Below are positions 8,965-26,818 of a stretch of DNA of 26,818 nucleotides, one piece after another; position 1 is the stretch's first letter, and the number at the start of each line of letters is the position of its first letter. The notes beneath the pieces are model-generated. The model saw nothing but the letters and a program-made list of their open reading frames with translations. It had not been told where the DNA came from and searched no databases. The stretch comes from a virus: positions 1 through 26,818 of IMG/VR virus record IMGVR_UViG_3300030098_006066. One strand, given 5' to 3'. The translations under genes were made by a program, and so were the position numbers.

Positions 8965-11900
8965 ATGCCGGAGATTAAACATACATTTCATGCCGGAAAA
9001 ATGGACAAGGATACAGATGAAAGACTTGTCAAAAACGGTGAATATAGGGATGCTTTAAACGTACAAGTTAGAACTACAGATGGTGGATCTGATGGTACTG
9101 GTGATGCTGGTGCTATTCAAAATATAAAAGGTACTAAACGAGTTATATTGGTTACTCCTACTACGAGTTATATAGATGATAATATATCAGGAGAAAAAGA
9201 TGAAACTAGGATTATAGCAAGTATTGCTGATGAAGCAAAAGATAGAGCGTTCTTTTTTGTGGCGTCTCCAGTTCCTTTTAATGGTATAGAAAGCATATCG
9301 CATACAGATATAATAAATGCTAGTCTTAATAGTGACGGTGATGTTGTAACTGGTCAATCTAAAAGAGATTGGATAGATAGAATAGTCGAATTAAATTATA
9401 GTCCTCAAAATGGTGGTGGTACTGATTACGACACTATATTTGTAGATAAATGGGCAGTCACCTGTACTTATGCAGACGCTGTTTCATCTCCTAGTTCTTC
9501 TACTAGTTATTCTTATATAACTGTCACAAATGGTGCTTTATATAGAGAGGGAATGATATTATACGCTCAAAATAGCAGTGGTGTTGATTTATTACATCAT
9601 ACAATAACAGTAGATGGAGAAACTTATAGTAGTACTCCTGGAGTTGAAATTGTAAAAATATCAGGTAATGATCTAGTATTAGCTGAAACACAAACATCAA
9701 ATCTACAAGAAAGTTGTGCTGTAATGAAATTCATACATCCAGAAAGAGTATTAGAATTTGATTATTATAAATCATCAGAAAATAATGTACAAAGAATTCA
9801 TAATGTAATTACTGGTATTAATATCATTGATGATTTATTATTCTGGTCTGATGGTATTCATGAGCCTAAAAAAATAAATATAGAAAGATCTAGAAAAGGT
9901 ACAACAACTGATGCTACACATACAGAGCTTTGGGTTACACATCCAGTAACTCATGAGTTAGTAAAAGTAACGGATATAGAACCAGATTTAAATACAGCGG
10001 ATATAAAAAAAGAACATATAACTGTTATAAGAAAAGCTCCGCAATCCGCTCCAACTTTACATATGGATATTAGCGACAGGGAGAATGATACCTCGTTTGA
10101 GATTAGTTATAATTTTAAAGATAATAATAGTATACCAAGTATACCTACTGAAGGATGTACAAGAATAATACCTTTCCCAATAGAAATAGATTGTAGAGAA
10201 GATGATGTTTTTAAGTTTACATCTGATAATATTTTTTCTAATGAACCATCAATAGTACGAGCTAAAGTTATTAATATAGATGGTACTAATGTTACTGTTA
10301 GATTAATATTTATGAGTAATGATGTGGCTGAAAATGATCCTAGTAATTGGGATGTAGAATTAGAGCAAAGAAAACCTTTATTTGAAACTAAATTTGGTAG
10401 ATTTGCTTATAGATACCAATACGATGATAACGAATATTCTAGTTTTTCACCTTGGTCAGAATTAGCTTTCTTACCTGGAGAGTTTGAATATTCACCTAGT
10501 AAAGGATATAATAAAGGTGTTGTTAATAATGTAAGAAGTTTGATTGTTAAAGATTTTGTGCCTCATGATGTTATAAGACCTAGCGATGTTAAAGCTATAG
10601 ATATACTTTGGAAAACAACAGATAATGCTAACGTATATATTGTAAAAACTATAACAAGAGAAAGAGATATAGAGTGGGAGAATTATACAAATACTATTAC
10701 TGATAATACTGGTTCTATTACAATAACATCTGAGATGATACACAAAGTTGTTCCTTCTAATCAAACACTTAGAGGTTGGGATAATGTACCTAGAAAAGCT
10801 GTTGCTCAAGAAATGACAGCTAATAGACTTATATATGGTAATTATATTCAAGGTTATGATTTACAGAATTCTTTTGGATTAAAGCAGTCTGTAATATCAA
10901 ATAGAGTACAATTTCCTAAACCTAGAAAATCTGTAAAATCAGATAGAAGTTATAGATTTGGAGCGGTATTTGGTGATAAGTATGGTAGAGAAACACCAGT
11001 TATGGCTAGTGGTTATAAAAATATACAGTTACAAGGAGATAATGAAGTAATTGAGAATATATCTGGTGATTTAGTTGTTGAAAAAAGTTTATCAGCTTAT
11101 AGTAATAAATTTCAATTAGAACAAAGTTGGGATGGTGTACCGGGAGAGTGGATGGATTATGTAAAATATTTTGTAAAAGAAACATCTAACGAATATTATA
11201 ATCTAATAATGGATAGATGGTATGAGGCTGAAGATGGTAACATATGGGTAGCTTTTCCTTCTGTTGATAGAAATAAGGTTGATGAAGAAACATTCTTGCT
11301 ATTAAAAAACGGGCATGGAACCCAAATGCCAATTGCAGAAGAAGCTAGATATAAAATTATAGCTATAGAAAATAATGCTCCAGATTTTATAAAAACTGAG
11401 AATAGAGATTACGATAAAATATACATAGTTAGAGATAATATTTATAGTGGAAGTCAAAGTGCTGTTACAGATGCCATACCAGATAAACTAATAGAAGAAA
11501 GAGAAATAATGATAGCAGCGGAACATTGGGATGCAGTAAAACCTAATACAGCTGATTTTAAAGGTATAGCAAAAGCTAGGATTATAGGTATATTCTCTAG
11601 CCCCGCAGATGGTGATGTTCAAGTTGAGAGTCCTTGGAGAAATTTAACTAAAATAATAGATCACGATAATGGAGGCGATCCTGTTAGAGGTGTTGTTTTT
11701 AATAAGCCGTTTGAGGAGAGTGAAGTCAACATGTACGAGAAATTACTATTAGAACTTTCAGATCCATCTGAATTAACAGATAATAAAGCAACTGTAGATA
11801 ATCCTAATGCAGATGGTTGGATACAGTATTATATACAACTTAGAGATGCTGTTATTGATAATAAACCACAATTTGATGGTAGATTTTTTGTTAAATTAGA

Positions 11901-14900
11901 AAAAGATTCTGTATTAGAAAAATCAGTATTAGGTACACAGGTTAGTTATGAAGTTCAAGCTACTTATGAGGTGGCTTATATTGCCGCAAAAGCAGAAAAT
12001 GAAGCAAATGTCTCTGAAGAAGATGATTTTACTCCAGGTCCTTATAATAATCCAAGTGATGCTACTTCTAATGATTGGCCTGGGAATGTATTTACATCAG
12101 CAGAAATAGAATATGATGCAAGTTATAATAACTCCTTAACTGCGCAAGGACCTCCTGCTGGAGAATCAGTACCAGCTGGTAATGTTAAAGTTGAAGATTT
12201 AACTAATGCAGATGGAGAGGTAAATGAAGATTTAACAACAAATGAAAATGGTATATCAGAAGCAGAGCAAACTGTTCCGCTATTCGGTCCTGGAGATCAT
12301 AGTAGTAATGGGAATAAAACAGAGCAATTCTGGGAATGGTGGTGGAATCAAGGTGTAGGTGGTAATACTAATAGAAAAAGTAATATATTTATAGATAGTG
12401 CCCCAGCATATAGTGGTTTTAGTAAAGTAATAGATTTAGTTAATTCTGATGATGGTACAGAAACAAAACGTCAAATTTTAAGATTTCTTAATTCTGGTTA
12501 TCAACCTTTAAGTCATTTTAAAGATAATTATATATATGGTCCTTATCCTTCTGGAGCGACATATCCTTATCCACCATACGATCTTGAATGGGATGGATCG
12601 GAATCAAAACAAAATTGGTCACCACAAGGACTTAGTAATGGTCATTTATCAAATGGAGAACTTGGGCAATTTACGTTTTCAGTAATTAAAGATGATTGGT
12701 CCACATCAGCTAGCGATGCTTTATTTAAAAGTGCTATGACAACTGTTGGAACTATATTTAGATTTGAAAATGATCCTAATAATGTTAATTATAAAATAAT
12801 ATCTTTTGTACAAAATACAGATGGTGACGGATTTGAGGGATTTGGTTCATTTTCAAACGGACAAGAAATAACAATAGAAAGTAGAAACTACGCAAACACA
12901 GAAGGTAGTCTTCGTAATAGATATTCAATTATAACTAGATTTGTAAGACTTAATGCTAGTAATGTAGAAGAACCTAATACTGGTATAGACATCAGTAAAT
13001 GGGATCCAAGAGGAGAAGTTAGACATGATGGTATAGGTAGTTTAAAAATACAAGTATTAACTCAAGTAGGAAACTTTAGTTTATCGGATAGATCACTTGC
13101 TACTAACGCGGCTTGCTGGGAAACTGAACCTAAAGAAGATATTGGTTTAGATATATATTATGAAGCTAGTGAGGCAATACCTATGAATTTAAAAGATACG
13201 GGAGATTTAATAACTTTTACTAAACCTTCGGCAAATAAGAAAAGAGCAAGTAACACAACGTTAGTAGATCGAACCTTTGATAGTAGTATGATTAGACCAA
13301 CTTTACCGTCAGACGCATATGTTAGTAATGTGTTAAGTAACGACGCTATTAAAATAATGTACCAAGGTTATGAGTTAGTAAACGGCGTGCAACAACCTAG
13401 CTACGAATTACCTTTAACTATTGATGTAGATAGACCTGGGTATGGTTTATTTCCAGGTGATATAATTAATTTTATACATAAATCTTCTCCGTATAAAAGT
13501 GGGATAATAACTAATTCAAAGATAATAGATTATTATGATGTTATAACAGGTTTACCTGGAAGTACAACGATACCAACTCTTTCTCCTAGAGAGACTAGAG
13601 ATGGTGTTCCGTATGCAGTTGGTGGTCAGGTAGCTGGAGCTGAAGGAGGTGGAGCTTGGTTAAAAACAGATGTAGGTGATATAAGTGGTAATAGTATAAT
13701 TGGTGCAGCTGTAACAGGACCTGGATTACCAGAAGTAGGTGTTGTTGTTTTAGATACTGGTTATGCAGGTTTTGGCGAACCTGCAGTAAGAGTTAATTGG
13801 AAATTTGATAATGATTATGCAAACGTATCAAATGCTTATGAATTTAAAATTTCTACTGGATGGTATAAAATAGATACTGAGGTTTGGAGATATCCTATAG
13901 AATTAGGATGGTTTAATTGCTATTCATTTGGTAATGGTGTAGAATCCGATAGAATAAGAGATGATTTTAATGCACCAACAATTGATAATGGTATTAAAGT
14001 TTCTTCTACATTTTTAGAGTATGGAAAAGAAAAGTTAGGTAGTGGATTAATATATTCTGGTTTATACAATTCAACTTCTGGCGTTAATAATTTGAATGAA
14101 TTTAACATGGCAGAGAAGATAACGAAAAATCTAAATCCAATATATGGCTCTATACAAGCGTTGAAAACTTCTGAAAAGAATTTAATCGTATTTGCTGAAG
14201 ATAAAATATTAAAAGTTTTAGCTAATAAAGATGCTATATATAACGCTGATGGCAATCCACAATTAACCGCAACAAATAAAGTATTAGGAGACACAACTCC
14301 TTACGCTGGAGACTTTGGTATATCTAAAAACCCTGAATCGCTTGCGTGGGATCAATATAGAATGTATTGTACTGATAAACAAAGAGGTGCAGTACTTAGA
14401 ATATCAATGGATGGTATAACACCTATATCAGATGTAGGTATGAGAACTTATTTTAGAAATAGGATGAAACTTAGCGATAGTATGGTTGGGACTTTTGATA
14501 CTGTAAACGGTGAGTATAACGTAACATTAGATAAAGGGTGGAAATATAATACAGCAGATGCAGTACCAACAACAGTATCATTTAATGAAAGATCTAAAGC
14601 TTGGACAAGTTTTAAATCGTTTATTCCATCAACTGGTGTTTCTGTTAATGGTAGATATTTAACAGCTAATAAAAATATGGTTTGGGAGCATTATTCAGAT
14701 ACAGCACCAAGAAATAATTTTTATGGTACTCAATATCAATCTGAAGTAGAAGTAATATTTAATGACATGCCTAGTGTTATTAAATCTTTTAAGACCATAA
14801 ATTATGAAGGAACTCAATCTAAAGTAATTCAATCTTATAATATATCTACAAGTAGTACTATATTGGATGCTGTCGGAAATAGCGTTTCTACAGATGATGG

Positions 14901-15213
14901 AGAATATTATAATTTAACATCTAAAAATGGGTGGTGGGTACAATCTTTTACAACGGATTCGCAAGAAGGTGCCGTACCTGAGTTTATAAATAAAGAAAAT
15001 AAATGGTTTAATAGAATAAGTGGAATAGCAACTACTGAAAGTAATTTAGATATGAATGAGTTTTCCGTTCAAGGTATAGGATTTCCATCTACTATTACTT
15101 CAGCGTCTACAGAAGATGCATCTGTACCTACAGCTGGTGATGAAGTTGACTTTATCATTGAGGATACTTATGATGGTGTTGATACAGGGATATATGGAGA
15201 TGATAGTTTGTAA
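8965..15213 (+). CDS. Giant stabilization / tail-hub protein (P22 gp10-like family, 'muzzle'-like)
   Basis: A 2082-residue protein, likely the closure or hub of the short tail that seals the channel and retains packaged DNA. Motifs I recall from the phage stabilization-protein family: GKMDKDTDERLVKNGEYRD (residues 11-29), FGRFAYRYQYDDNEYSSFSP (477-496), AEDKILKVLANKDAIYNADG (1744-1763) and ISKNPESLAWDQYRMYCTDK (1786-1805). These are spread along the chain, and the last two may belong to a beta-propeller-like C-terminal region. Residues about 1010-1135 are an acidic, Asn/Gly/Pro-rich linker. Around 1570-1600 there is a VTGPGLPEVGVVVLD motif typical of small beta domains in virion proteins. The protein is much longer than P22 gp10 (under 500 residues), so most of it is extra. 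It follows the connector gene by 5 bases. Confidence 0.82.
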   Translation: MPEIKHTFHAGKMDKDTDERLVKNGEYRDALNVQVRTTDGGSDGTGDAGAIQNIKGTKRVILVTPTTSYIDDNISGEKDETRIIASIADEAKDRAFFFVASPVPFNGIESISHTDIINASLNSDGDVVTGQSKRDWIDRIVELNYSPQNGGGTDYDTIFVDKWAVTCTYADAVSSPSSSTSYSYITVTNGALYREGMILYAQNSSGVDLLHHTITVDGETYSSTPGVEIVKISGNDLVLAETQTSNLQESCAVMKFIHPERVLEFDYYKSSENNVQRIHNVITGINIIDDLLFWSDGIHEPKKINIERSRKGTTTDATHTELWVTHPVTHELVKVTDIEPDLNTADIKKEHITVIRKAPQSAPTLHMDISDRENDTSFEISYNFKDNNSIPSIPTEGCTRIIPFPIEIDCREDDVFKFTSDNIFSNEPSIVRAKVINIDGTNVTVRLIFMSNDVAENDPSNWDVELEQRKPLFETKFGRFAYRYQYDDNEYSSFSPWSELAFLPGEFEYSPSKGYNKGVVNNVRSLIVKDFVPHDVIRPSDVKAIDILWKTTDNANVYIVKTITRERDIEWENYTNTITDNTGSITITSEMIHKVVPSNQTLRGWDNVPRKAVAQEMTANRLIYGNYIQGYDLQNSFGLKQSVISNRVQFPKPRKSVKSDRSYRFGAVFGDKYGRETPVMASGYKNIQLQGDNEVIENISGDLVVEKSLSAYSNKFQLEQSWDGVPGEWMDYVKYFVKETSNEYYNLIMDRWYEAEDGNIWVAFPSVDRNKVDEETFLLLKNGHGTQMPIAEEARYKIIAIENNAPDFIKTENRDYDKIYIVRDNIYSGSQSAVTDAIPDKLIEEREIMIAAEHWDAVKPNTADFKGIAKARIIGIFSSPADGDVQVESPWRNLTKIIDHDNGGDPVRGVVFNKPFEESEVNMYEKLLLELSDPSELTDNKATVDNPNADGWIQYYIQLRDAVIDNKPQFDGRFFVKLEKDSVLEKSVLGTQVSYEVQATYEVAYIAAKAENEANVSEEDDFTPGPYNNPSDATSNDWPGNVFTSAEIEYDASYNNSLTAQGPPAGESVPAGNVKVEDLTNADGEVNEDLTTNENGISEAEQTVPLFGPGDHSSNGNKTEQFWEWWWNQGVGGNTNRKSNIFIDSAPAYSGFSKVIDLVNSDDGTETKRQILRFLNSGYQPLSHFKDNYIYGPYPSGATYPYPPYDLEWDGSESKQNWSPQGLSNGHLSNGELGQFTFSVIKDDWSTSASDALFKSAMTTVGTIFRFENDPNNVNYKIISFVQNTDGDGFEGFGSFSNGQEITIESRNYANTEGSLRNRYSIITRFVRLNASNVEEPNTGIDISKWDPRGEVRHDGIGSLKIQVLTQVGNFSLSDRSLATNAACWETEPKEDIGLDIYYEASEAIPMNLKDTGDLITFTKPSANKKRASNTTLVDRTFDSSMIRPTLPSDAYVSNVLSNDAIKIMYQGYELVNGVQQPSYELPLTIDVDRPGYGLFPGDIINFIHKSSPYKSGIITNSKIIDYYDVITGLPGSTTIPTLSPRETRDGVPYAVGGQVAGAEGGGAWLKTDVGDISGNSIIGAAVTGPGLPEVGVVVLDTGYAGFGEPAVRVNWKFDNDYANVSNAYEFKISTGWYKIDTEVWRYPIELGWFNCYSFGNGVESDRIRDDFNAPTIDNGIKVSSTFLEYGKEKLGSGLIYSGLYNSTSGVNNLNEFNMAEKITKNLNPIYGSIQALKTSEKNLIVFAEDKILKVLANKDAIYNADGNPQLTATNKVLGDTTPYAGDFGISKNPESLAWDQYRMYCTDKQRGAVLRISMDGITPISDVGMRTYFRNRMKLSDSMVGTFDTVNGEYNVTLDKGWKYNTADAVPTTVSFNERSKAWTSFKSFIPSTGVSVNGRYLTANKNMVWEHYSDTAPRNNFYGTQYQSEVEVIFNDMPSVIKSFKTINYEGTQSKVIQSYNISTSSTILDAVGNSVSTDDGEYYNLTSKNGWWVQSFTTDSQEGAVPEFINKENKWFNRISGIATTESNLDMNEFSVQGIGFPSTITSASTEDASVPTAGDEVDFIIEDTYDGVDTGIYGDDSL

Positions 15214-15231: not shown

Positions 15232-17085
15232 ATGGCAAATAATTATTTTATAGAAGGTAATGGAGAAATAGATAGTCTTGGTAGAGCTATCTTTAAAACT
15301 TCTGAAAATAAAGGTGACTCGACTTTCGATGGAAGTATGGTTACATCTGGTGCATTAATAGTACAGCCAAATGCTGGATACACTGTTGCTGCAGCTGATT
15401 TTTCTATTTCTAATTTAAGTACGCTAACAACCCCATACTTAGATAATGGTGAAGAAAACCCTGATTATAAGTGGGTTGAAGGTATTACTATAGCAGACAC
15501 TGGTACTCCTGGGACTATATCAAATACTATACGTATTACAGTATCTTTAGTAACATCAGGACCAAGAGGTCCTCTAGTTCTATCCAGTAATTTTACTATA
15601 GGATTAGATATAGATGGGGATGCTTTAGTTAATAATGTACCTGAAAATGTTGCATTTAATATACCTATTATAAATCAAAACAACGCGGCAAATCAATTCG
15701 CTGGATCAGATACAGATATAAATGCCAATGCCACTGTAACACTAACTCCTGAATCTGGTGTTTCTATAAACACTGTAGCTAATGGAGAGTTTAGTGAAAT
15801 GACACTAACTGGTCAAGTAGCACCAGATGAACCAACTAACGTTGGTAATATAAATATAGCAGCTAACGCTGGGTATTACTTTCAAGAAACCCCTTATTTA
15901 TCATACGTAGATACACCTAGTGATATCATCGCTTTAAATTCTCCAACTATAACATATAATAGCGATAATTTAGCAACTGCTTTTAGTTTTAATGTTGTAT
16001 ATAAAAATAGTGTAGATACAACAAACAATTCTCAATCAAAAACATTTGTAAGATATAAAACAACACAAATACCTACTGCAACAAAAGAAATTCAAGATAT
16101 TAAATTTGGCCAAACTCAAGTATCAAATAGAGGCGATATGAGAAATATTGCAGTACATGGTGACGCTGACGCAGAGTTTGATATCACTATACAAGATAGC
16201 CGTAGTGTATCTATTATAGATTCAAATCTTTCTAATAAAAAAACACTAACAGGAGATATTGCAGAATCTGATGCTATTAGTAAAAAATTAAAATCAACTG
16301 GTAGAAAAAAGGGAAAAACTTCATATAAGTTCGATCAAGAATTTCCTGCTTATAAGTCATTAATAAGAGACACTGCTCTTAATATGGGTGGAGGTTTAAG
16401 TGGTACTAAGGCTATATTTACCAGTTTAACTGGTGTAGCAGTAGGGGATAGAGTAATGATGGATGAAATACCTAATAGCACAGAAGTAACCGTTTCAGCA
16501 TTAAATCCAGATGGGGATAATGTAAACGAATGTACTCTCTCATCATCTGTTACTGCAAGTAACGGTAGTAAGGTAAGATTTCATAGACCACAAACATATT
16601 ATATAAATATTTATCCAAGAGAAGGAACTACATTAAGTTCTAGAATTCCTACAGTAACACCTCACTATACTATAAAACAATATGACGATCCTATTCTTAC
16701 TCTAAAGACTAAAGAAACTGATGCTGGTTATGCTGCTATAGGTACTTATAAATATACAGGTAAAGCTAATGCTCATCCAAGTCAATTAAAAGATACGCCA
16801 AGAATGTTCTCTTGTAAAATAACTGGTACTAGAAGTGATGGTGGTACTTTTGCTGCTGTAGGTGCTACTAGTGGTATACCAACTTGGTCAAGTACGGATT
16901 CCACAGTTTCATCTTGGAGTAACTCTACTTATGCTGATAATGGTGGTATGCATATAGAAATATTTAATATAGCTGTTAGTGGTATAGGTGGTGCAAGTTA
17001 TGTATTAACATTTGAAGTACTCATAAAAAGATGGGGTACAGAGGACGTTACCATGATTTTAGATTTAGACACAATAATAACATAG
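15232..17085 (+). CDS. Beta-rich virion protein with repeated Ig-like segments
   Basis: The 617-residue product is dominated by Ser/Thr/Asn/Val beta-strand sequence with no enzymatic motif seen, as in phage tail appendages or head decorations. Two parts resemble each other: one around residues 40-110 containing QPNAGYTVAAADFSISNL, and one around 195-265 containing IAANAGYYFQETPYLSY. This suggests duplicated Ig-like domains. Residues about 400-450 hold a GVAVGDRVMMDEIPNSTEVT segment, a small beta-domain motif also seen in neighbouring proteins. It is transcribed with the hub gene (18-base gap) and the small gene downstream (5-base gap). Host-range or receptor-binding function is possible but not shown. 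Confidence 0.72.
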   Translation: MANNYFIEGNGEIDSLGRAIFKTSENKGDSTFDGSMVTSGALIVQPNAGYTVAAADFSISNLSTLTTPYLDNGEENPDYKWVEGITIADTGTPGTISNTIRITVSLVTSGPRGPLVLSSNFTIGLDIDGDALVNNVPENVAFNIPIINQNNAANQFAGSDTDINANATVTLTPESGVSINTVANGEFSEMTLTGQVAPDEPTNVGNINIAANAGYYFQETPYLSYVDTPSDIIALNSPTITYNSDNLATAFSFNVVYKNSVDTTNNSQSKTFVRYKTTQIPTATKEIQDIKFGQTQVSNRGDMRNIAVHGDADAEFDITIQDSRSVSIIDSNLSNKKTLTGDIAESDAISKKLKSTGRKKGKTSYKFDQEFPAYKSLIRDTALNMGGGLSGTKAIFTSLTGVAVGDRVMMDEIPNSTEVTVSALNPDGDNVNECTLSSSVTASNGSKVRFHRPQTYYINIYPREGTTLSSRIPTVTPHYTIKQYDDPILTLKTKETDAGYAAIGTYKYTGKANAHPSQLKDTPRMFSCKITGTRSDGGTFAAVGATSGIPTWSSTDSTVSSWSNSTYADNGGMHIEIFNIAVSGIGGASYVLTFEVLIKRWGTEDVTMILDLDTIIT

Positions 17086-17090
17086 ATATT

Positions 17091-17462
17091 ATGGCAGAGA
17101 TTACTTTATACTTTCCAGAAACAGAACAGTCATCAGTACAAGTGGGTGACACGGCTTATTATATAAATCCTGATGATGATTCAGGTGGATTTCAAGTTGC
17201 TAACCAAGATAATTTAGTACTTATTGGTACGATAATAGAAATACAACCATCTCCTCCTAATAGCACATTTGTTATAAAATGTAATATAGATGATAGCACA
17301 CCTTTACCTACTTCATCAAGTTTTATATTATTTTCTAAAAACAATTCTGTTAATTGTTCTTCTTTATTAGGATATTATGGTTCTGCTAAATTTAAAAACA
17401 ATTCTACGGAAAAAGCAGAGATGTTTGCTACTAGTTGTGAGGTTAACGAAAGTAGTAAATAA
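17091..17462 (+). CDS. Small conserved virion protein, 123 residues
   Basis: The likely start is the ATG at 17091, five bases after the upstream stop and preceded by an A/T leader. An in-frame ATA codon at 17031 would force a long overlap with the upstream gene and is less likely. The protein is beta-rich. Its N-terminal part (VQVGDTAYYINPDD, then LIGTIIEIQP) looks like a small barrel. The C-terminal part contains YGSAKFKNNSTEKAEMFATS followed by CEVNESSK, an ending I recall from small structural proteins of marine phages. The three Cys residues are scattered. Function is unknown; a tail or baseplate accessory role is inferred from position. It is the last gene before the second promoter-like element, with no hairpin terminator behind it. 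Confidence 0.75.
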   Translation: MAEITLYFPETEQSSVQVGDTAYYINPDDDSGGFQVANQDNLVLIGTIIEIQPSPPNSTFVIKCNIDDSTPLPTSSSFILFSKNNSVNCSSLLGYYGSAKFKNNSTEKAEMFATSCEVNESSK

Positions 17463-17503: not shown

Positions 17504-18208
17504 ATGTCGACAATTAGAAAAGATAACGAATCACCTTTTAAAATATGGCAAGCTATAGGCGGCCTAGTAGGTGGTTTGTATACTGGTATACAAGCTGGTA
17601 AAGCCGCTAAAAAGGCTGAAAAAGCGGAAAAAAAGGCTAGAAAAGAAAGAGATGCTGCGAGGCGTGATATGAGGAATATAGATATGAGTAATCCATTCGA
17701 AGGAATGCAAAACCAATTTGCTGGCATGGAGAACAAAATGGAGGATTTAACGATTAATCAAAAAGAAGCGCAATTTGCAGCACAACAATTTGCTCAGAGT
17801 CAATCTAATATTATGTCAGGGTTAAGAGGAGCCGCAGGTGGTAGTGGTATAGCAGCATTAGCTCAATCATTAGCACAACAAGGACAATTAGCTGCTCAAA
17901 AATCAGCAGCTGGTATTGGTCAGCAAGAAGCAGCTAATCAAGCTAAAATGGCTCAAGAAGCTAGTAATATACAATTAAAAGAAAGAGCAGGAGCTGCTCA
18001 AGTTGCTCAACAAATAGCAGCGGGTGAAGCGGCTTCTCAAACAAGAGAGTTACAAAAACAACAAGCAATATTTAATGATGCTTCTGCTGAGTACCGAGCG
18101 GCTCAAGGAACGGCTGCGGCTGCCCAAGCACAGAAAGATCAAGCTTGGGGTGGTGTTATAGAAGGTGGAGTAAGCGCTATTGGATCGCTAGTAACTGGCG
18201 GTGTTTAA
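17504..18208 (+). CDS. Putative internal virion (ejection) protein, Ala/Gln-rich, T7 gp14-like architecture
   Basis: The 234-residue protein has a Gly-rich hydrophobic N-terminal helix (WQAIGGLVGGLYTGIQAG, about 15-32), a Lys/Ala/Glu coiled coil (33-55) and a long Ala/Gln-rich helical region (about 85-205). It ends in a second Gly-rich hydrophobic segment (GGVIEGGVSAIGSLVTGGV). This matches in plan, not in aligned sequence, the small internal core protein gp14 of T7 and similar ejection proteins, which line the channel and insert in the host envelope. Its position just before large unknown virion-type genes fits. It is the first gene after promoter-like copy 2. A tail chaperone or a minor capsid protein are alternatives. 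Confidence 0.68.
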   Translation: MSTIRKDNESPFKIWQAIGGLVGGLYTGIQAGKAAKKAEKAEKKARKERDAARRDMRNIDMSNPFEGMQNQFAGMENKMEDLTINQKEAQFAAQQFAQSQSNIMSGLRGAAGGSGIAALAQSLAQQGQLAAQKSAAGIGQQEAANQAKMAQEASNIQLKERAGAAQVAQQIAAGEAASQTRELQKQQAIFNDASAEYRAAQGTAAAAQAQKDQAWGGVIEGGVSAIGSLVTGGV

Positions 18209-18229: not shown

Positions 18230-19186
18230 ATGCAAGAAGAATATATACCTCGAACAGAACAACCAGTAGAAGACATACAGCCTCAAGTAACAAATGAAGA
18301 TTTTTTTAGTGCAATGAATAATGAGTTTAATAGAGAATCAAAATTTTCAGAGGAAGAAATGTCAGCATTACGTGAGATGTTCAAAGTTATGAGTGATGAA
18401 TATCCTAATTTAAATAAGGAGCAACAAGCATTGTATGAAGCTAAAGTAGTGACAGTAGGAGATAGATTATTTAAAAATGAAGAATTTAAAAAACAGTTGT
18501 CAGGTGACTTAAATGATAGTAGTTTAATAGGAGATGATCCTGTTAAAAAGTTTGGCAATGAACTAGCTACTGATTTAATAAATATAACTAATGGAAATAA
18601 TGAAACTGTATATAAAGATAATACGCCTGGGTATATGATGAAAGATGGAAGTTTCATGTCTATGGAAGATATACAATCACTTGTTAAGGGTAAGTATATA
18701 GATCAAAAGTCAATAGATGTACTTACTGCCGCTACTGATGAGCAAATTAAATTAGCAGGTAATGTGCAGCCAGGTGAAAATGCTGAATTTAATTGGCCAA
18801 AACAACATAATTTTGTAAAAAATAATTTGATTGGAAACGGTGATATAAAATCATTAGCAACTGATAAAATATTTGGTAATAGAGTTTTTGAAGATGATTT
18901 AATGTCTTCTATAGAAGCTGGTACATATAAAGAAATGGGGATACCAGAAAACTTAGTAGTAGATCCAACTCCTAATGATGGTAAAATATCTTCTGAAGAT
19001 GCAGCACAAATAACATCGAATATAATACAAGATCCGGATTTATTAACTGAGTATTTATCAGATTATTATACAAAAGTTTTAGAGCAAAATTTTTATAGTA
19101 ACTTAAGTCCAGAAGTTAGAAAATATACACAAACAAAAAATCCATTTACACCAGAAAATCTAAAAGACGAGAACGAATACGCGTAA
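18230..19186 (+). CDS. Acidic protein of unknown function, probable internal virion component
   Basis: The product is 318 residues. I do not recognise the family. Residues 1-25 are Pro/Gln/Glu-rich and probably flexible. The remainder is acidic and mostly helical, with many short Asp/Asn/Gly turns and no Cys, signal peptide or membrane segment. It lies 21 bases after the putative internal core gene and 37 before the giant ORF, all on one strand, so co-expression with ejection-type proteins is likely. It might be a partner or chaperone of the giant protein, but that is a guess from position. The start is ATG after TATAATT, again without a Shine-Dalgarno sequence. Confidence 0.75.
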   Translation: MQEEYIPRTEQPVEDIQPQVTNEDFFSAMNNEFNRESKFSEEEMSALREMFKVMSDEYPNLNKEQQALYEAKVVTVGDRLFKNEEFKKQLSGDLNDSSLIGDDPVKKFGNELATDLINITNGNNETVYKDNTPGYMMKDGSFMSMEDIQSLVKGKYIDQKSIDVLTAATDEQIKLAGNVQPGENAEFNWPKQHNFVKNNLIGNGDIKSLATDKIFGNRVFEDDLMSSIEAGTYKEMGIPENLVVDPTPNDGKISSEDAAQITSNIIQDPDLLTEYLSDYYTKVLEQNFYSNLSPEVRKYTQTKNPFTPENLKDENEYA

Positions 19187-19223: not shown

Positions 19224-22200
19224 ATGAAAAAAAGATACAAAGTAATTGTAAATGGTAAAACTGTTTATAAAAATGTTTTACCAGAAAATGAAGAAAAATT
19301 CTGGAAAGATTACGGACAATACGATCCTATTGAAGTAAACATGCCTGGCTTCCAAAGCGAGGAAGAATTAGCAGTAACGCTAGAAAATCAAAATCAAAAT
19401 CAAAATCAAGACGAGTCAGTCAAAAAAGAATCCAAAGAAATAAAAATTGATAAAATTAATTTAGAAGATTATCCAATAAATAGTCCTGAAAGAAAAAGTA
19501 AATATGATGAATTAGGTTGGGTCTATGACGCTACAATAGATGGGTACGATGTAGATAATTGGAAAAAGAAGGGGATATTAAAAGAAGACAAAGTATTTGA
19601 ACAAGAAGAAAATGGGAAAATTTGGACTCAAACTGGAGGATTCGGTGAAAGTGAAGAAAGTGGGAAACAAGTATGGGAATGGGTTAGTGCAGAAGAATAT
19701 GAAAAAATAAAACTAAAAAAATATGATCTAGAAGAGTTTAATCCTATCCAAAAAAATATACTTGAAGCACATAAGAAAAACGTAAACGATCCTAATTACA
19801 AGGGTCTGACTGATAATCAAGAAGCTATAATGGAAACCGGGAATCCTCTTTATGGTTACACTATGAGTGAAGTAACTGGCATGGGTGTAGATGCTTATGA
19901 AGATCTTTCTTCAGAAGAAAAAGATGCAATTAAAGAAGATTTAAGAAATGAAGGTAGTATAGGGGCAGGGGATTATAGTATACCAGTAAATCTTAAATAC
20001 CCTACTGAAGAAGAAATCTCCGAATATTTAACCAATGTACTCCCTCTATCTGATAGAACTCATATAAAAGGCACAAGATATACAAAGAATACCGCTACTG
20101 CTGTAGAAAATATATATAAAGAAAGAGGAGCAGAAGGAGTTTATATTAACAATTATAGTGCTGATGGTATAGCTATTAATATTGGAGAGGGTCCTATTAG
20201 TGAAGCTTTTCCTCATATACATGCTGATGCCACTGTAAGTACATACAACAATTATTATGTAGGTGATTTAAATACGTACGTAAGAACAATAACCGAACCT
20301 AAATATAAAGAAGAATTATATTCATATATATATGATTTAGCTGGTAACTCACTTTATTTAGAAGATTTAGGACAATTTATTGGTGATTTAAATGTTAGAA
20401 AAGCATTTTATTCTCAACAAGATTATTTATCACCTAGAGAGCAGAGTATAGAAGGGTATGAAACTAATAGAAGAGTAGAATTATTAGATGGTTTATACAA
20501 AAGAGGATTGTATAATAGAGATATAAAATCTTTAATGGATTCTTATTATAATGCGTCTGCTAAGCCGGTGCTCCATCCTTTATTTCAAGATTGGGTGGAT
20601 CCACAAGATCAACAAGCTTATCAAGGTTATGGAGTTTCAGCTATGGGTTACGATTTATACGAAGCGGATTTTGTTAAAGAGCCAGGTATCAACGGATGGG
20701 ATCCAAATGTTCCTTGGGAAAGTCTTAGTACAGAGCAAATTGAAAAAATGAAAGCTGACCCTGATCTTAGTTTCTTATTTGATTACGAAAAAGAATTTAA
20801 TAAAAAATTCAAAAAAAGAAGTGAAGGAGGATATGAGTATGCTTACGGTGTTAATCCATTTATTAGCATGGGGTACTCTACAAATAATATACACGCACCG
20901 TATATATCGCCAGGTATGATAGAAAATGGTAATAATAAAACCCAATTTAATAGAGCTGGTGATTTAAATATGTATTTACAAGAAAATTCAAAATTTGCTA
21001 TAGGGGGAATAATGGATTTGAAAAAACGGTTCGGTGATGATTTTGTTAGTGAATCCAAAGGTGGGTATATTACTTTAGAGGATGGGACGAAAATATCGCA
21101 TGATTTTATTTGGAAAAACAAAAAAGATATTTTACAAATTGGTAGCGAAATAAATATTCAAAAAGGAAAAGAAAAAGAGAAAGAGAAAATAGCAGAAGGA
21201 CGTTGGGGTAGTGAGGGGCATGAAACAGATCTACATAAATGGAGAGAAAAGAAAAAAAATGAGGTAAATTCAATATACTTTAGTGATGTAACGTTTAATG
21301 GTATATCTAGTGATGGTACAAATGAAGATGGAGAAAAAGTAGCTAATGGTGAAGATATTTGGAGAGAAGGAGCTATGTATAGTTATTATACTGATGAAGG
21401 TCAATTCGATCCATATTTGTTACATCATTCTGATGGTAAAATAAATGTAAAAATAGCTAAATATAAAGATTTAGTAGCAAAATTAGATGAATACCCTCAA
21501 GATGATTTATATGGTAAACATTTTTCAGGAGGAGATGATAAAACGACAATTGGTGAAGTAAGAAATATTTATGCGAATGAAATGGCGAAGATGTATAGAC
21601 AGCAGGGACATCAACCATTATATGATGATGATGGTAATTTCATAGATGTAATAAAGAGGGAATGGAAAGAAGAAAATGGCTATAATGTTTTAAGGGATAT
21701 TAATGGTAAAATCATAGAGAAAGTACAAATAATAGGTACTATGGAAGAAGCAGAGGTTTTAGCTGAAGCCAATGATCTATCTGCACTAGAAGCCAAATTT
21801 AATGATTTACACTATAGACTTGTAATGAACGCTAAAGCTCTTGCGGGAAATATGGACGAAGTTCTAGGTGATCAAAAAAATGTACATAAAAATATTTCTT
21901 ATATAAAAGGGCTTTTGGGTGCTGGAGATGATTCTTGGATGCATGATATGAAGCAAATAATAAAAGTTGCTTATGGTGAAAAATTAACAGGTCTTGATAG
22001 TGACGATGTATTACTTAAGTACTTTCCTCAATGGAGTGATAAAGATGCTTTTGGTTATGATTTAGATGATGATTTACCTTACTTAACCAAAATATCTGGA
22101 ACTAATGATTTATCTAAAAAACATAATGCTCTTTTAAATCAATTAGTAACAACATATCTAGCTATTAGAATAAATACGAATCCAGTTAAATTACCAGTGG

Positions 22201-25200
22201 AAGGCGTATTATCTGAAATGAAGAAAAACTTAGCATTAGCTTTTACTGGTGAAGATTATAATCCCTCAGATCCTAAAGTAGAAGATATTAAAAACACCGC
22301 AGTACAAATATTTAACGATATGAACTACGACGTTCCTGCTAACACTGTCGTACGAGAAAGCCTTGACAGACAAACTTATGATAGAATTACAAGTGGTGTT
22401 TTCAGTATAGCACAATTAACAGTTGCTGTGGCCGTCGGTAATAGAGCCCTTGCTCTTGGTAAAGGATTTAAGTTATTAAATGCTTGGGTTAATGGGACAA
22501 AGACGATAAGGAATGCTAGCAAAACAGCAAAACTAATAACACAATGTGGTTTAGGAGCACTTGCTACAACAGTGCAATTTACTGCTGGTGAGCAAACTTG
22601 GTCTATTGCGACTGGAAATGATATAAATATGACGCTCTATCAAGATGAAAATGGAGAATGGGTTTTTCATCCAACTATAGCAGTAGCGTTAGGAGTTGGT
22701 ATGCCTATGTGGACGCAGTTTAAGAATGTTATGAACGGTAGATTAATGAAGGCTAATAAGAACTACGCGCGTTTAAATAAGTTAATGCCTGAAACAGTTA
22801 AAAAAGTTGTTTCTAAAGCGGGTAGCGGTGTGCTTCCAGCAACGATAATAGCAGTACCAACAGAATTAGAGAGTTTATTAAAGACTGGGGAATGGTCTCA
22901 AACACCTGATAATATATCACATTACCAAGCATTTCTTGAATCAATTATAACATTTTCAGCATTTGGAATGATGAAAGGTGGCCCTAAAGAATATTATGAA
23001 GCTGCTAAAGTAGATGTATTAAAATTAAAAGGTTTTGATGTAGCGCAATATAATGGCATGAATACCCTTGGGATTAAGAAGAACCAAAGAACTAAAGATG
23101 GTATAATAGATTATGATTTAATAGAAAATACAGCTAATAATAAAAAGAAAGAAATAGATAATGAAATTAAGAAAGTAGAAGAGTCAAATATATCTGCAGA
23201 AAAAAAAGGTGAAAAGATAACTGAATTAGAAAATAAAAAAGCTGAATATGAGCAAGCGAAAAGAGATTTAAATACTTATAATCTTTATGTAGAAGCCAAG
23301 ACTATTGCTAAAAAAGAAAATAACTACGGAGAGTTTTTACAAAGAACTTATCTAGATACCCAAACATTTAATAATTTAATACGTAATCCAGAAAACTTAA
23401 CTATAAAAGAAATAGAGTTAATAGGTAACTCTTGGAGAGGATTAAGACCAGAAGCACTTAGTCAAATATATAGCAAATTAGGATGGAAAGAAGGTTCGGT
23501 AAATATGCTGCATGCTGATTTCCTAGCATTTCAAGTTATGAAAAGTGTACATAAACTTGATATGATGGGCATTGAAACGAATAACTTAAAAAGACAATCT
23601 TACTTAAGAAAAAATCTTGAAATAGCATATAATCAAAATAAAATAAATATTTTAAAAAATGCTATTGAAAAAAATCCTGAATCAAAAACTGTAAATACAG
23701 AAAAAATAAAAAGAATAGAGAAGGAGAACAAGGAACTTAGAGAAGAAACACATAATATAGAAGTAGAGTTTGCTGAGAATTTTAAAGGAGAATTAAAACG
23801 TGAAAATGATTATTTAAAGCTAGTATTAGAAGGAGATAATAAAAAAATAGATGCTAAGATTGAAAAAATTAAAAAAGATAAAACATTATCTGTACAAGAA
23901 AGAAATCAAAAAATAGCTAAACTAAATGCAGATAAAAGAGGATATCACGCTGTTAATACAAATAAATTTAAAAATATAGTAAAAAAAGAAGGTGGTATTT
24001 GGGAAAAAACTATGTTTGCATTTATTTCAAAAGATGGTAAAAGAATATATGTAGATCAACAAAAAGCTTTTAAAGAAAAATCATTATCAGATGGTATGCA
24101 TGATGGTATACACATGATGTTATACAATCATCTAAAAACTGTAAATTCTAAAGGTCAAAGAGTATTATCAAAAAAAGGTATAGCAACTATAGATCGTATG
24201 TTAGATTTATTACCTGGTGGAAGGTCTGGGGATGCTTATCAAACACTTAAAAAAATCGTTGAAACGAATTATAGATATAAAGTAGATATTGAAGCTTCGC
24301 AAAAAGAAAGTTTAAAAAGAGGTGAAGAAACAATTATATTTGAAAAGGATAAAAATGGTAAACGTATAGAAACTCCAAAGGAAGAGTATTACGAAGAATA
24401 CGTTACCAAATTAGGTCAACTTATAAGAAGTGGAAAAATAGAATCAACAGAAAACTTAGGCACAAGACTTGGTAAAGCTTTTTATCCAATATTTAAAAAA
24501 GTTGGTCCTTTTAAAGGTATGTACGAATTCGATATAGGTAATACTAATACCAAAAAAGCTGGAACAGATTTATTAAAATTTGTAGAATGGGTGGGTACTA
24601 AAGGCTTTACGGAAAATGTACTTGAGCTTGGCAGAGGAAAAGGATTTGGAGAGGGTATATCTGCTATAGCGAAGTCTAAAGATATACATTCTCAAATATC
24701 AAAACTTAAATCTGGTTCGAAAAAAATTGTTGATAATAACAATACTATATCAGAAATGTTAACAAAACGTGCCAAAGAAAAGTTTGGTGAAAATTGGAAA
24801 GAAATTTTAACGAGTAAAACACCTTCAAATAAAGCTAAACAAAAAGAGTTTATTGAAGAAACATCGGAATTAAGAAATGCTATAGTAAAGAATAATGAAA
24901 ATGTAGCACATTGGATGGCGTCACATCCTAAGTATGGTGGTAAAGGTGGATACAGTGGTATAGAAGGCGACATATTAGTTGGTAAAGACAGATTTTTTGA
25001 AAAGTTTGAAAATGAATTATATGAATTGAGTAGAACCTACAATCCAGCTAAAGGTACTCCAGTAGGTGCTTATTTATTTGAAACTATAAGATATAGATAT
25101 CCAAAGATAATGGAGCAATTAGCACCTGAAACTCGTACTAGATCAATAACAACAGAAGATGGGAAGATACTTGATGTAAAAGATATTGTTAATTATGAGA

Positions 25201-26818
25201 GATTTGAATCTGAAAACATCCTTGAAATAGAATTAAAGAAACAGCGAGAAAAAGAATTTGAATCAGAAGTAGGAAACATAATACCGAAATCTAAACTTAG
25301 GAAGGAAATAGGTATAACAGATGTGCATAAAAATGAAATATTTAAAAAAGTAGAAATAGATATTAGATTAGCAGAAGCACCTATTGGTAAACAAAAAGAT
25401 TTTTTAAAATCATTAAATAAAGTAACTGAAAATACTCATTATAATATATTATCTAAATTATTACCAAAAGAAAAAATGTTGCAACATAAAAATGTTATAT
25501 TAGAATCTATACCTATATCACAATTAGTTCAAATGGGTAAGTTTCTACCTCAAGGTAATATATTTGTAAAAGAACATACACATCCAACAAAAACTAAATG
25601 GAGTACTGAATCTAATATACAAGAATTTATGGGTATTAGACCTGAAGGTGGATTTATTGTTAATAAGACTGGAAAAAACTTATTACCAGAAATGAGGAAT
25701 CTTTGGGATAAATTTTCTAAAATGCCTTTGGAAAAACAAAAAGCTTCACCTGAATATATAGAATATAAGAAAAAATTAAAAGTTGGATTCCCTAAAATAT
25801 TTGAAAGATTAGAAGTTGGGCAAAATGCATGGAAAGAATATTTAGAAGCTGCGACTAGAGGTAAAAGACAGATAGCAGCTAAATCAGGTACAAAAGGAAA
25901 TAATAGAGATAATATTATAAGAAAATTATCGACTGCATTAACTAAAGATGCTATACCAGAATTATTAGCAGATAAAAATGTTGTTGAAAAATATATGGAT
26001 TCTAAGAATCTTAAAGAACAAATAGAAGCTAAAGCATTAATTGAAAGGTTTGTTAATAACGTAGATAGAGCGCAAGGATTACAATTTTCTAAAGAAATAA
26101 AAACAGGAGATTTAGTATCAAGTGGTGAGCGATCTATAAGAGGTATGTTTAAAGTTGTTAATAAAATAGCTGAAGTAGGTGTACATAAAGTTTATGATTT
26201 TATCCCAGTAGGAAAAAAGTTTGAATATAAACTTAAAAAAGAATATGAAAACTGGATTAGTAAAACAGAAGCTAAATTTCTTTTTGAAAACTTAATACTT
26301 GAAAACAAAGTTTTTAATAAAGAAGGTAATGTAGTAGTTGAAAAAATATTAGAAGGTATAGATGCTGGACCTAAACGTAATTTAGGTTTTGAGCAATTTA
26401 TCATTAATCAATTTAAAGGAATAAAAGGTTTAGTATTAAAAACTGAAGTACAAACAGAAAAAGGGGATATGGCGGATGTTCCTGCTGAAATTGCTGGTGA
26501 AGCATTTAATGTAGAGGTTAAAATGCATAATGGTAGATTAGGTAGTTATACTGCTGGTATAGATATAAAGAATAACACAATAATACCAGTATCAACAAAA
26601 AACTTCAGTAAAGTTAGAGATAGAGCTCAAATAGAATCATTACAAAAAGAATCGCTAAAAGGTTGGCGAAAAATAAGAAGTTACTATAAAAAATTATCTA
26701 AGTTTCCTGGTATATCAAGTAGAGATAGGATACTTTTAGAGAATTTTAATAAGCATAGTGACGCTGTTCCAGAATGGGCTTTTGAAGCAGCTAAAGAAGC
26801 TAAGTTATATAGTCAAGC
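19224..26818 (+). CDS. Giant multidomain virion protein (polyvalent-protein-like), 3' end outside the window
   Basis: I translated this frame through the window and met no stop: at least 2531 codons. Visible parts: an N-terminal motif, MKKRYKVIVNGKTVYKNVLP, with a Gln-Asn repeat (aa 54-61); a long acidic region. Hydrophobic patches lie at aa 1057-1079, 1104-1122, 1151-1163, 1200-1215 and 1237-1250. Predicted coiled coils are at 1301-1365 and 1460-1576. HDGIH (1626-1630) resembles a zincin HExxH with Glu replaced by Asp. A helix with YNPAKGTPVGAYLFETIRYR (1939-1958) resembles sigma-factor region 2. A PD-(D/E)XK-type set comprises E2390, D2418, E2431 and K2433. Such mosaics are known for large phage 'polyvalent' proteins and for internal proteins ejected with the DNA, and position after the core-like genes fits. 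It is not recognisably an RNA polymerase or a transglycosylase. The gene is certain; each domain call is tentative. Confidence 0.88.
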   Translation, partial: MKKRYKVIVNGKTVYKNVLPENEEKFWKDYGQYDPIEVNMPGFQSEEELAVTLENQNQNQNQDESVKKESKEIKIDKINLEDYPINSPERKSKYDELGWVYDATIDGYDVDNWKKKGILKEDKVFEQEENGKIWTQTGGFGESEESGKQVWEWVSAEEYEKIKLKKYDLEEFNPIQKNILEAHKKNVNDPNYKGLTDNQEAIMETGNPLYGYTMSEVTGMGVDAYEDLSSEEKDAIKEDLRNEGSIGAGDYSIPVNLKYPTEEEISEYLTNVLPLSDRTHIKGTRYTKNTATAVENIYKERGAEGVYINNYSADGIAINIGEGPISEAFPHIHADATVSTYNNYYVGDLNTYVRTITEPKYKEELYSYIYDLAGNSLYLEDLGQFIGDLNVRKAFYSQQDYLSPREQSIEGYETNRRVELLDGLYKRGLYNRDIKSLMDSYYNASAKPVLHPLFQDWVDPQDQQAYQGYGVSAMGYDLYEADFVKEPGINGWDPNVPWESLSTEQIEKMKADPDLSFLFDYEKEFNKKFKKRSEGGYEYAYGVNPFISMGYSTNNIHAPYISPGMIENGNNKTQFNRAGDLNMYLQENSKFAIGGIMDLKKRFGDDFVSESKGGYITLEDGTKISHDFIWKNKKDILQIGSEINIQKGKEKEKEKIAEGRWGSEGHETDLHKWREKKKNEVNSIYFSDVTFNGISSDGTNEDGEKVANGEDIWREGAMYSYYTDEGQFDPYLLHHSDGKINVKIAKYKDLVAKLDEYPQDDLYGKHFSGGDDKTTIGEVRNIYANEMAKMYRQQGHQPLYDDDGNFIDVIKREWKEENGYNVLRDINGKIIEKVQIIGTMEEAEVLAEANDLSALEAKFNDLHYRLVMNAKALAGNMDEVLGDQKNVHKNISYIKGLLGAGDDSWMHDMKQIIKVAYGEKLTGLDSDDVLLKYFPQWSDKDAFGYDLDDDLPYLTKISGTNDLSKKHNALLNQLVTTYLAIRINTNPVKLPVEGVLSEMKKNLALAFTGEDYNPSDPKVEDIKNTAVQIFNDMNYDVPANTVVRESLDRQTYDRITSGVFSIAQLTVAVAVGNRALALGKGFKLLNAWVNGTKTIRNASKTAKLITQCGLGALATTVQFTAGEQTWSIATGNDINMTLYQDENGEWVFHPTIAVALGVGMPMWTQFKNVMNGRLMKANKNYARLNKLMPETVKKVVSKAGSGVLPATIIAVPTELESLLKTGEWSQTPDNISHYQAFLESIITFSAFGMMKGGPKEYYEAAKVDVLKLKGFDVAQYNGMNTLGIKKNQRTKDGIIDYDLIENTANNKKKEIDNEIKKVEESNISAEKKGEKITELENKKAEYEQAKRDLNTYNLYVEAKTIAKKENNYGEFLQRTYLDTQTFNNLIRNPENLTIKEIELIGNSWRGLRPEALSQIYSKLGWKEGSVNMLHADFLAFQVMKSVHKLDMMGIETNNLKRQSYLRKNLEIAYNQNKINILKNAIEKNPESKTVNTEKIKRIEKENKELREETHNIEVEFAENFKGELKRENDYLKLVLEGDNKKIDAKIEKIKKDKTLSVQERNQKIAKLNADKRGYHAVNTNKFKNIVKKEGGIWEKTMFAFISKDGKRIYVDQQKAFKEKSLSDGMHDGIHMMLYNHLKTVNSKGQRVLSKKGIATIDRMLDLLPGGRSGDAYQTLKKIVETNYRYKVDIEASQKESLKRGEETIIFEKDKNGKRIETPKEEYYEEYVTKLGQLIRSGKIESTENLGTRLGKAFYPIFKKVGPFKGMYEFDIGNTNTKKAGTDLLKFVEWVGTKGFTENVLELGRGKGFGEGISAIAKSKDIHSQISKLKSGSKKIVDNNNTISEMLTKRAKEKFGENWKEILTSKTPSNKAKQKEFIEETSELRNAIVKNNENVAHWMASHPKYGGKGGYSGIEGDILVGKDRFFEKFENELYELSRTYNPAKGTPVGAYLFETIRYRYPKIMEQLAPETRTRSITTEDGKILDVKDIVNYERFESENILEIELKKQREKEFESEVGNIIPKSKLRKEIGITDVHKNEIFKKVEIDIRLAEAPIGKQKDFLKSLNKVTENTHYNILSKLLPKEKMLQHKNVILESIPISQLVQMGKFLPQGNIFVKEHTHPTKTKWSTESNIQEFMGIRPEGGFIVNKTGKNLLPEMRNLWDKFSKMPLEKQKASPEYIEYKKKLKVGFPKIFERLEVGQNAWKEYLEAATRGKRQIAAKSGTKGNNRDNIIRKLSTALTKDAIPELLADKNVVEKYMDSKNLKEQIEAKALIERFVNNVDRAQGLQFSKEIKTGDLVSSGERSIRGMFKVVNKIAEVGVHKVYDFIPVGKKFEYKLKKEYENWISKTEAKFLFENLILENKVFNKEGNVVVEKILEGIDAGPKRNLGFEQFIINQFKGIKGLVLKTEVQTEKGDMADVPAEIAGEAFNVEVKMHNGRLGSYTAGIDIKNNTIIPVSTKNFSKVRDRAQIESLQKESLKGWRKIRSYYKKLSKFPGISSRDRILLENFNKHSDAVPEWAFEAAKEAKLYSQ
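19384..19407 (+). repeat. Hexanucleotide microsatellite (AAAATC)x4 coding Gln-Asn repeats
   Basis: Four perfect AAAATC units lie inside the giant ORF and encode alternating Asn and Gln. The unit is two codons, so copy-number change would lengthen or shorten a flexible linker without shifting frame. It separates the short N-terminal motif from the rest of the protein. Confidence 0.85.

Follow-up and report, generated by a model that had tools for sequence, protein, structure and literature searches.

A giant gene closing the structural module of a flavobacterial-type podovirus likely encodes an injected polyvalent protein with a predicted sigma70 region 2 fold

The DNA analysed here (the window) is a 26,818-base IMG/VR virus fragment, and all features described below lie on its + strand. 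They include a portal protein (1174..3576), which places the phage with the flavobacterial podoviruses, and a muzzle (tail tip) protein of 2,082 aa (8965..15213; crAss_MUZ_C, phrog_14478), followed by four small genes and a giant open reading frame (ORF), which closes the structural module. The first of the four encodes a 617 aa protein (15232..17085) and sits between the muzzle and the ejection genes. It is followed by genes for a 143 aa protein (17031..17462; phrog_18548) with a conserved position in the module, a 234 aa Ala/Gln-rich basic protein (17504..18208), likely an ejection protein, and a 318 aa acidic protein (18230..19186), directly upstream of the giant and likely a virion or ejection protein. 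The last 55 bases of the 617 aa ORF (17031-17085) are also the first of the 143 aa ORF, read in another frame, and the true start of the latter may lie further downstream. A sequence-only reading of this DNA had placed a core-like and an acidic protein ahead of the giant, and both were recovered: the 234 aa protein has a core/ejection-like composition (Ala 21%, Gln 13%, pI 9.3) and the 318 aa protein has a pI of 4.4. Relatives of the 318 aa protein were sought and none was found. In three related contigs (L002, L003 and L004) the order is muzzle, 438-895 aa, 127-146 aa, 230-294 aa, 321-534 aa and giant, the window equivalents of the four small products being 617, 143, 234 and 318 aa. Among the phage collection, the portal and muzzle proteins match only cultured Flavobacteriia phages, plus the environmental genome MW202828, while portal and terminase belong to PHROG families of the same kind as that of the muzzle. 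From the portal and muzzle matches we infer that the phage stands near Elemovirus, Pervagoviridae and Pachyviridae, which would make it distant kin of the crassviruses.

The giant ORF (19224..26816) starts with an ATG and runs for 2,531 codons without a stop up to the window end; it is open at its 3' end because the fragment stops there. That a frame of at least 2,531 codons runs off the window had been noticed from the letters alone, and relatives align to it. BLAST comparison with P0004, L063, P0002, L016 and L033 gave 38-44% identity across 1,700-2,240 residues, and partial, weaker matches were obtained with others among the family loci. Since alignments of ~2,000 residues at this level of identity come together with a conserved upstream gene order, the ORF represents a real gene and not a chance frame. 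Complete giants of close relatives measure 3,675 aa (P0002), 3,610 aa (L033) and 3,569 aa (L016), so that about a third of the window giant is missing; as these close relatives extend ~1,400 residues past the nuclease motif described below, a full protein of ~3,800-3,900 aa is expected. The complete giant of a more distant relative, P0003, reaches 4,072 aa. An IMG/VR search identified relatives in L002, L003 and L004/L005. A family search with the downstream module of the relatives (HAD plus kinase) as query returned 72 loci, of which 67 carry the module (58-100% identity), always within a larger reading frame (1,260 to 4,518 aa, with some frames cut short at contig edges).

Scans of the full 2,531 aa protein against Pfam and PHROGs gave no match, nor did tblastn against the 50,697 phage records of the cultured-phage collection, in agreement with the initial remark that the chain matches no single known protein. 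RNA polymerase families were likewise absent from the Pfam and PHROGs scans, and a search with PF00940 gave no match, its positive control being equally silent. A Pfam match to SLT (lytic transglycosylase) was absent from these first 2,531 residues, and none of the catalogued LPD domains showed a Pfam match on the window protein.

The giant opens with a motif of ~40 aa (Y.V.GK..Y..V.PENE..F...; 19224..19343) that is common to otherwise divergent members. In 18 giants it is followed by a conserved Q/N/S/T-rich low-complexity linker (EPGKSQGTSQPQNNQQQNTESSSEDGSSES-like). This N-terminal region was noted in the window at 19224-19450 and in L030, L031, L033, L040, L063 and others; a pattern search of the other ORFs of these loci did not find the linker. 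Motif and linker may together possibly act as a virion-targeting tag. L018 and L035 have two copies of the motif, and none was found among cultured phages. Further along, the Kyte-Doolittle mean exceeds 1.4 in a single 19-residue window, at residue 1059, and this most hydrophobic segment (residues 1059-1077; 22398..22454) is the only candidate membrane-active stretch. Residues about 1300-1560 (23121..23903) are Lys/Glu-rich and helical-looking, and could form a coiled coil. Of the mosaic of membrane-like, coiled-coil and enzyme-like segments initially proposed, the enzyme-like part thus holds, through the zincin and nuclease motifs described next, the coiled-coil part is plausible, and the membrane-like part is weak.

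Residues 1607-1770 (24042..24533) are recognised as a putative zincin of the gluzincin type (HExxH...E) by the zinc-ligand pattern H1626, H1630 and E1725. Iterated profiles seeded with window residues 1590-1770 gathered 58 members, and the three ligands are invariant across the 51 that were aligned. HExxH itself is present in 57 of the 58; the sole exception is the window, where HDGIH (24099..24113) replaces the general-base Glu by Asp. Members such as L063 and L016 read HEVAH and HEVTH, respectively. Compared with HEVTH and HEIGH in its neighbours, all three inner residues of HDGIH have changed, making a single miscall improbable as the cause, but an assembly or sequencing error in this one record may still lie behind it. 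An Asp in place of the Glu of HExxH usually cripples such enzymes, and a weak or dead protease is therefore expected in the window lineage: the zincin has kept its zinc ligands and is probably slow or inactive. When the members were compared with Pfam, Peptidase_M78 recurred most, weakly and in five of 51, beside scattered chance matches to unrelated families, and the zincin profile found nothing significant in the PDB. No cultured phage contributed to this profile, and it retrieves elemo gp72 (E 4e-10) and MW202828 (E 5e-6). With phmmer, residues 1534-1647 matched a clostridial neurotoxin chain (E 0.003), but this match was rejected: it lies upstream of the zincin, with a partial overlap, and is not paired with the zinc motif, ending 17 residues past HDGIH, and no wider evidence accompanies it. 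The part of the neurotoxin chain to which it aligns presumably lies beyond that protein's own motif.

A second enzyme-like domain, at residues 2336-2475 (26229..26648), is a candidate PD-(D/E)XK-like nuclease. Its residues E2390, D2418, E2431 and K2433, which make up the E...D...ExK signature of such nucleases, are invariant in all eleven members, i.e. the window and ten relatives. A dedicated model of the domain (mean pLDDT 70, weaker in the core) retrieved no PD-(D/E)XK structure and no useful match with Foldseek or VIA-align, so that the assignment rests on the conservation of the motif. Past the point where the window ends, close relatives continue with the HAD motifs DFDDT, LTARP and VDDA, which flank an inserted P-loop kinase with Pfam AAA_33/Zeta_toxin matches above cut-off, and then with a conserved helical domain, matched to no named LPD, and C-terminal Cys/His repeats resembling zinc fingers. 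The interrupted HAD is found at L003:16952-18071, L002:16229-17348 and L004:13811-14930, and similarity to its nested kinase part was seen in hypothetical proteins from Pelagibacter and Methylophilales phages. In P0003 an insert of several hundred residues (L004:14931-16500), with repetitive strand-like segments at residues about 2845-3280, separates the HAD from the helical domain. A kinase and a HAD phosphatase in one chain form a nucleic-acid end-healing layout, as in T4 Pnk, although in the relatives the kinase sits within the HAD.

Between zincin and nuclease, residues 1826-1968 (24699..25127), including YNPAKGTPVGAYLFETIRYRYPKIM, are predicted to adopt the fold of sigma70 region 2. A profile built from window residues 1868-1990 gathered 24 members, and Pfam Sigma70_r2 matched weakly in four of the 18 scanned (best E 0.0047), with no other family found in more than one member; the Sigma70_r2 match falls on giants in three records. 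The top match of a PDB sequence-profile search was also a sigma factor (E 0.078). An AlphaFold2 model of residues 1582-2531, based on 23 sequences, reached a mean pLDDT of 67, and mostly 75-90 in the sigma-like region, apart from a loop of low confidence (model residues 321-340). When this region was compared with the PDB by VIA-align, all 50 of the 50 matches listed were sigma factors (Z 7.3-9.7), with 95 of 96 residues superposed at 3.2 A on the RpoS region 1.2-2 fragment 5h6x and 99 residues at 2.9 A on 8ftd. In the BFVD a phage sigma factor was matched at probability 0.89, the best match (E 2.2e-4) being an unnamed uncultured-virus protein. Structure prediction combined with Foldseek had been suggested at the outset as a check of the whole giant; for this domain Foldseek listed sigma factors among its weak matches (probability up to 0.82, with sigma E-values above 1).

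On this evidence we consider a region 2 fold fairly probable for residues 1826-1968. The similarity consists of the predicted fold and the helix order over about 100-115 residues; unlike members of the sigma70 family, the domain is embedded in a giant chain and shares about 10% identity with them, and neither Sigma70_r4 nor any other Pfam family was found in the window protein, so that regions 3 and 4 are unrecognised within its first 2,531 residues; a region 4 may be encoded past the window end or have diverged too far. Two aromatic residues which we take, from RpoD, to help melt the -10 element seem to be E and T in the window. The domain might also be a generic, convergent helical bundle that serves as spacer or protein-protein adaptor and never contacts transcription. 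The weak sequence statistics fit such a bundle, as does the profile-profile comparison (hhalign) of the domain with the stand-alone sigma factor of the clade, which gave a probability of 0.3%; helical folds reach middling Z values by chance, and the Z of 7-10 obtained here is below the level of about 13 under which caution is advised for such folds by the aligner. Against it, sigma factors are what the independent routes (Pfam, the PDB profile search, Foldseek and VIA-align) point to in every case, with no second family recurring, and the match spans the whole region 2 domain, including a colinear xNPxK...F/VGAY segment. We therefore regard the bundle as unlikely, if worth keeping in mind.

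Near-full-length relatives (64-72 kb) also bear on what a region 2 fold would be for. In five of the six, a separate protein of ~252 aa exceeds the Sigma70_r2 cut-off; these stand-alone sigma70-family proteins are located at L086:525-1283 and in L087, L088, L089 and L090. For this reason the view of the giant as the phage's sole sigma factor was dropped, and the presence of a separate full sigma factor, next to which a second one is not needed, again fits a plain helical bundle. A transcription-related role of the region-2-like domain is put forward with some reserve, as a possibility rather than an expectation. A division of labour, with the giant as the sigma factor of entry and the stand-alone protein as a later one, is speculation.

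The evidence on where the giant acts comes from cultured relatives. In cultured flavobacterial podoviruses, too, the structural block ends with a gene for a giant protein, in the same place: elemo gp72 (3,757 aa), Gundel gp74 (2,482 aa), phi38:1 gp101 (1,691 aa), phi18:3 gp123 (1,935 aa) and Panino (1,829 aa), to which the environmental genome MW202828 adds a protein of 3,859 aa. For phi18:3, gp123 as well as gp114, gp115, gp120 and gp121 have been annotated with 'experimental MS/MS proteomics analysis', and the MS-detected gp120 is placed similarly to the 234 aa protein of the window. phi18:3 gp123 resembles phi38:1 gp101 (E 2e-19) and Gundel gp74 (E 3e-14), and phmmer connects it to the family members L043, L060 and L078 (E 6e-10 to 5e-9; no reversed sequence did better than 0.095); the C-terminal domain of the family finds Gundel gp74 (E 4.5e-12). 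Profiles from window residues 600-1600 reached none of the cultured giants, and the link to the MS-proven phi18:3 gp123 is therefore transitive.

The same observations bear on whether the giant could be a multi-enzyme that is synthesised early, once infection has begun, works in the cytoplasm and never enters the particle. Its modules are enzyme-like, which would suit such a role, and the MS data are those of phi18:3. All relatives, however, have the giant at the end of the late structural operon, with strand and position unchanged, and its syntenic homologue phi18:3 gp123 has been detected by MS in virions, which leaves the cytoplasmic alternative highly improbable. Another possibility is that the giant is a structural ejection protein of the T7 gp16 type (ejectosome- or tape-measure-like), which builds the DNA channel and whose embedded domains are vestigial scaffolding, with no enzymatic role in the host. 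It does adjoin ejection-like proteins and has long helical stretches, and phi38:1 gp101 and phi18:3 gp123 are much shorter and have no zincin, so that enzyme modules are dispensable there; the Asp that replaces the catalytic Glu in the window zincin points the same way. On the other hand, the retention of zinc ligands and HExxH in 57 of 58 zincin members and of E...D...ExK in all eleven nuclease members requires selection on activity, and the kinase of the relatives is recognisable by Pfam. A purely structural function is, in our opinion, rather improbable, and T7 gp16 and the N4 virion RNA polymerase, both mentioned in the sequence-only reading, are unsupported as specific relatives.

We consider it likely, instead, that the flavobacterial-type podovirus of the window carries the giant in its virion and injects it, as a polyvalent (cargo) protein. 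The notion that it is kept in the capsid and enters the host along with the genome had been raised from the sequence, and has gained support from the position after the muzzle, the syntenic giants and the MS/MS detection of phi18:3 gp123; with its transitive link it is well supported by synteny and homology rather than by direct proteomics. Several effector-type domains occur per chain, namely the zincin, sigma-region-2-like and nuclease-like domains in the window part and the HAD/P-loop kinase in relatives. The comparison with polyvalent proteins, also made at first sight, is appropriate: in that class the zincin is the commonest and the hub domain, with the Glu of HExxH as predicted general base, and its members are very long phage-borne chains with several enzyme-like domains around this metallopeptidase (PMC5512222). 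Unlike in that account, where 'sigma' occurs 0 times and a HAD-kinase module is absent, the present family has a predicted sigma-fold domain and, in relatives, a HAD-kinase module, and the window zincin has HDxxH. The cargo proteins of crassviruses (phicrAss001 gp45-gp50) are similarly large and encoded after the muzzle and tail genes; head and tail are their expected place of storage, and according to the published model the stored cargo is ejected after the muzzle opens (PMC10172136). The giant there is RNA polymerase-associated, in contrast to the window giant with no recognised RNA polymerase domain, and the relatives of the window encode a stand-alone sigma factor instead. With the giants of Elemovirus, Pervagoviridae and Pachyviridae the genomic place is common; the zincin is shared with elemo gp72 and MW202828, and the C-terminal domain with Gundel gp74, whereas the phi38:1 and phi18:3 giants have no zincin. 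The elemo and Gundel giants (L007:15640-26913 and L012:22109-29557) carry other modules, a DUF3293 and a GNAT-like region, respectively.

We infer packaging of the window giant, its ejection and the activity of every module, and the events could proceed as follows. The giant would be packaged near portal and tail with the 234 aa and 318 aa proteins, and would exit the particle through the muzzle, with or ahead of the DNA. It would then refold in the host, where its modules could act prior to phage gene expression. The zincin may process the giant itself or host proteins, and the PD-(D/E)XK-like domain may cut nucleic acid. Healing of nucleic-acid ends may fall to the HAD/P-loop kinase, a C-terminal module that only the relatives show. 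The sigma-region-2-fold domain could dock on the clamp of the host RNA polymerase and interfere with or retarget host transcription. That a clade with no recognised virion RNA polymerase injects a sigma region 2 domain, by which the host RNA polymerase is seized or blocked at entry, with the stand-alone sigma factor taking over later, is a conjecture that we rate as doubtful.

Phages need control of host transcription from the first seconds. To this end, N4 and crassviruses are known to bring RNA polymerases in their virions, and T4 brings a modifying enzyme, Alt; a clamp binder of the sigma type carried in the particle would, if true, be a third virion route to this control. What is new here is the unusual set of modules, and its surprising, testable piece is the sigma-region-2-like domain; a literature search turned up no giant virion protein described as having a sigma-fold domain. 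The idea can be tested on more than 60 related contigs and on cultured flavobacterial phages that have the gene in the same place. Within the family, domain sets appear to be swapped among injected giants while the position and the N-terminal motif stay constant. An alternative N-terminal tag, M[ST]K.KSPLKH, was observed at L004:6407-6450 and in L041, L048, L050, L051 and L075, and the two tags look as if they were exchanged loading signals.
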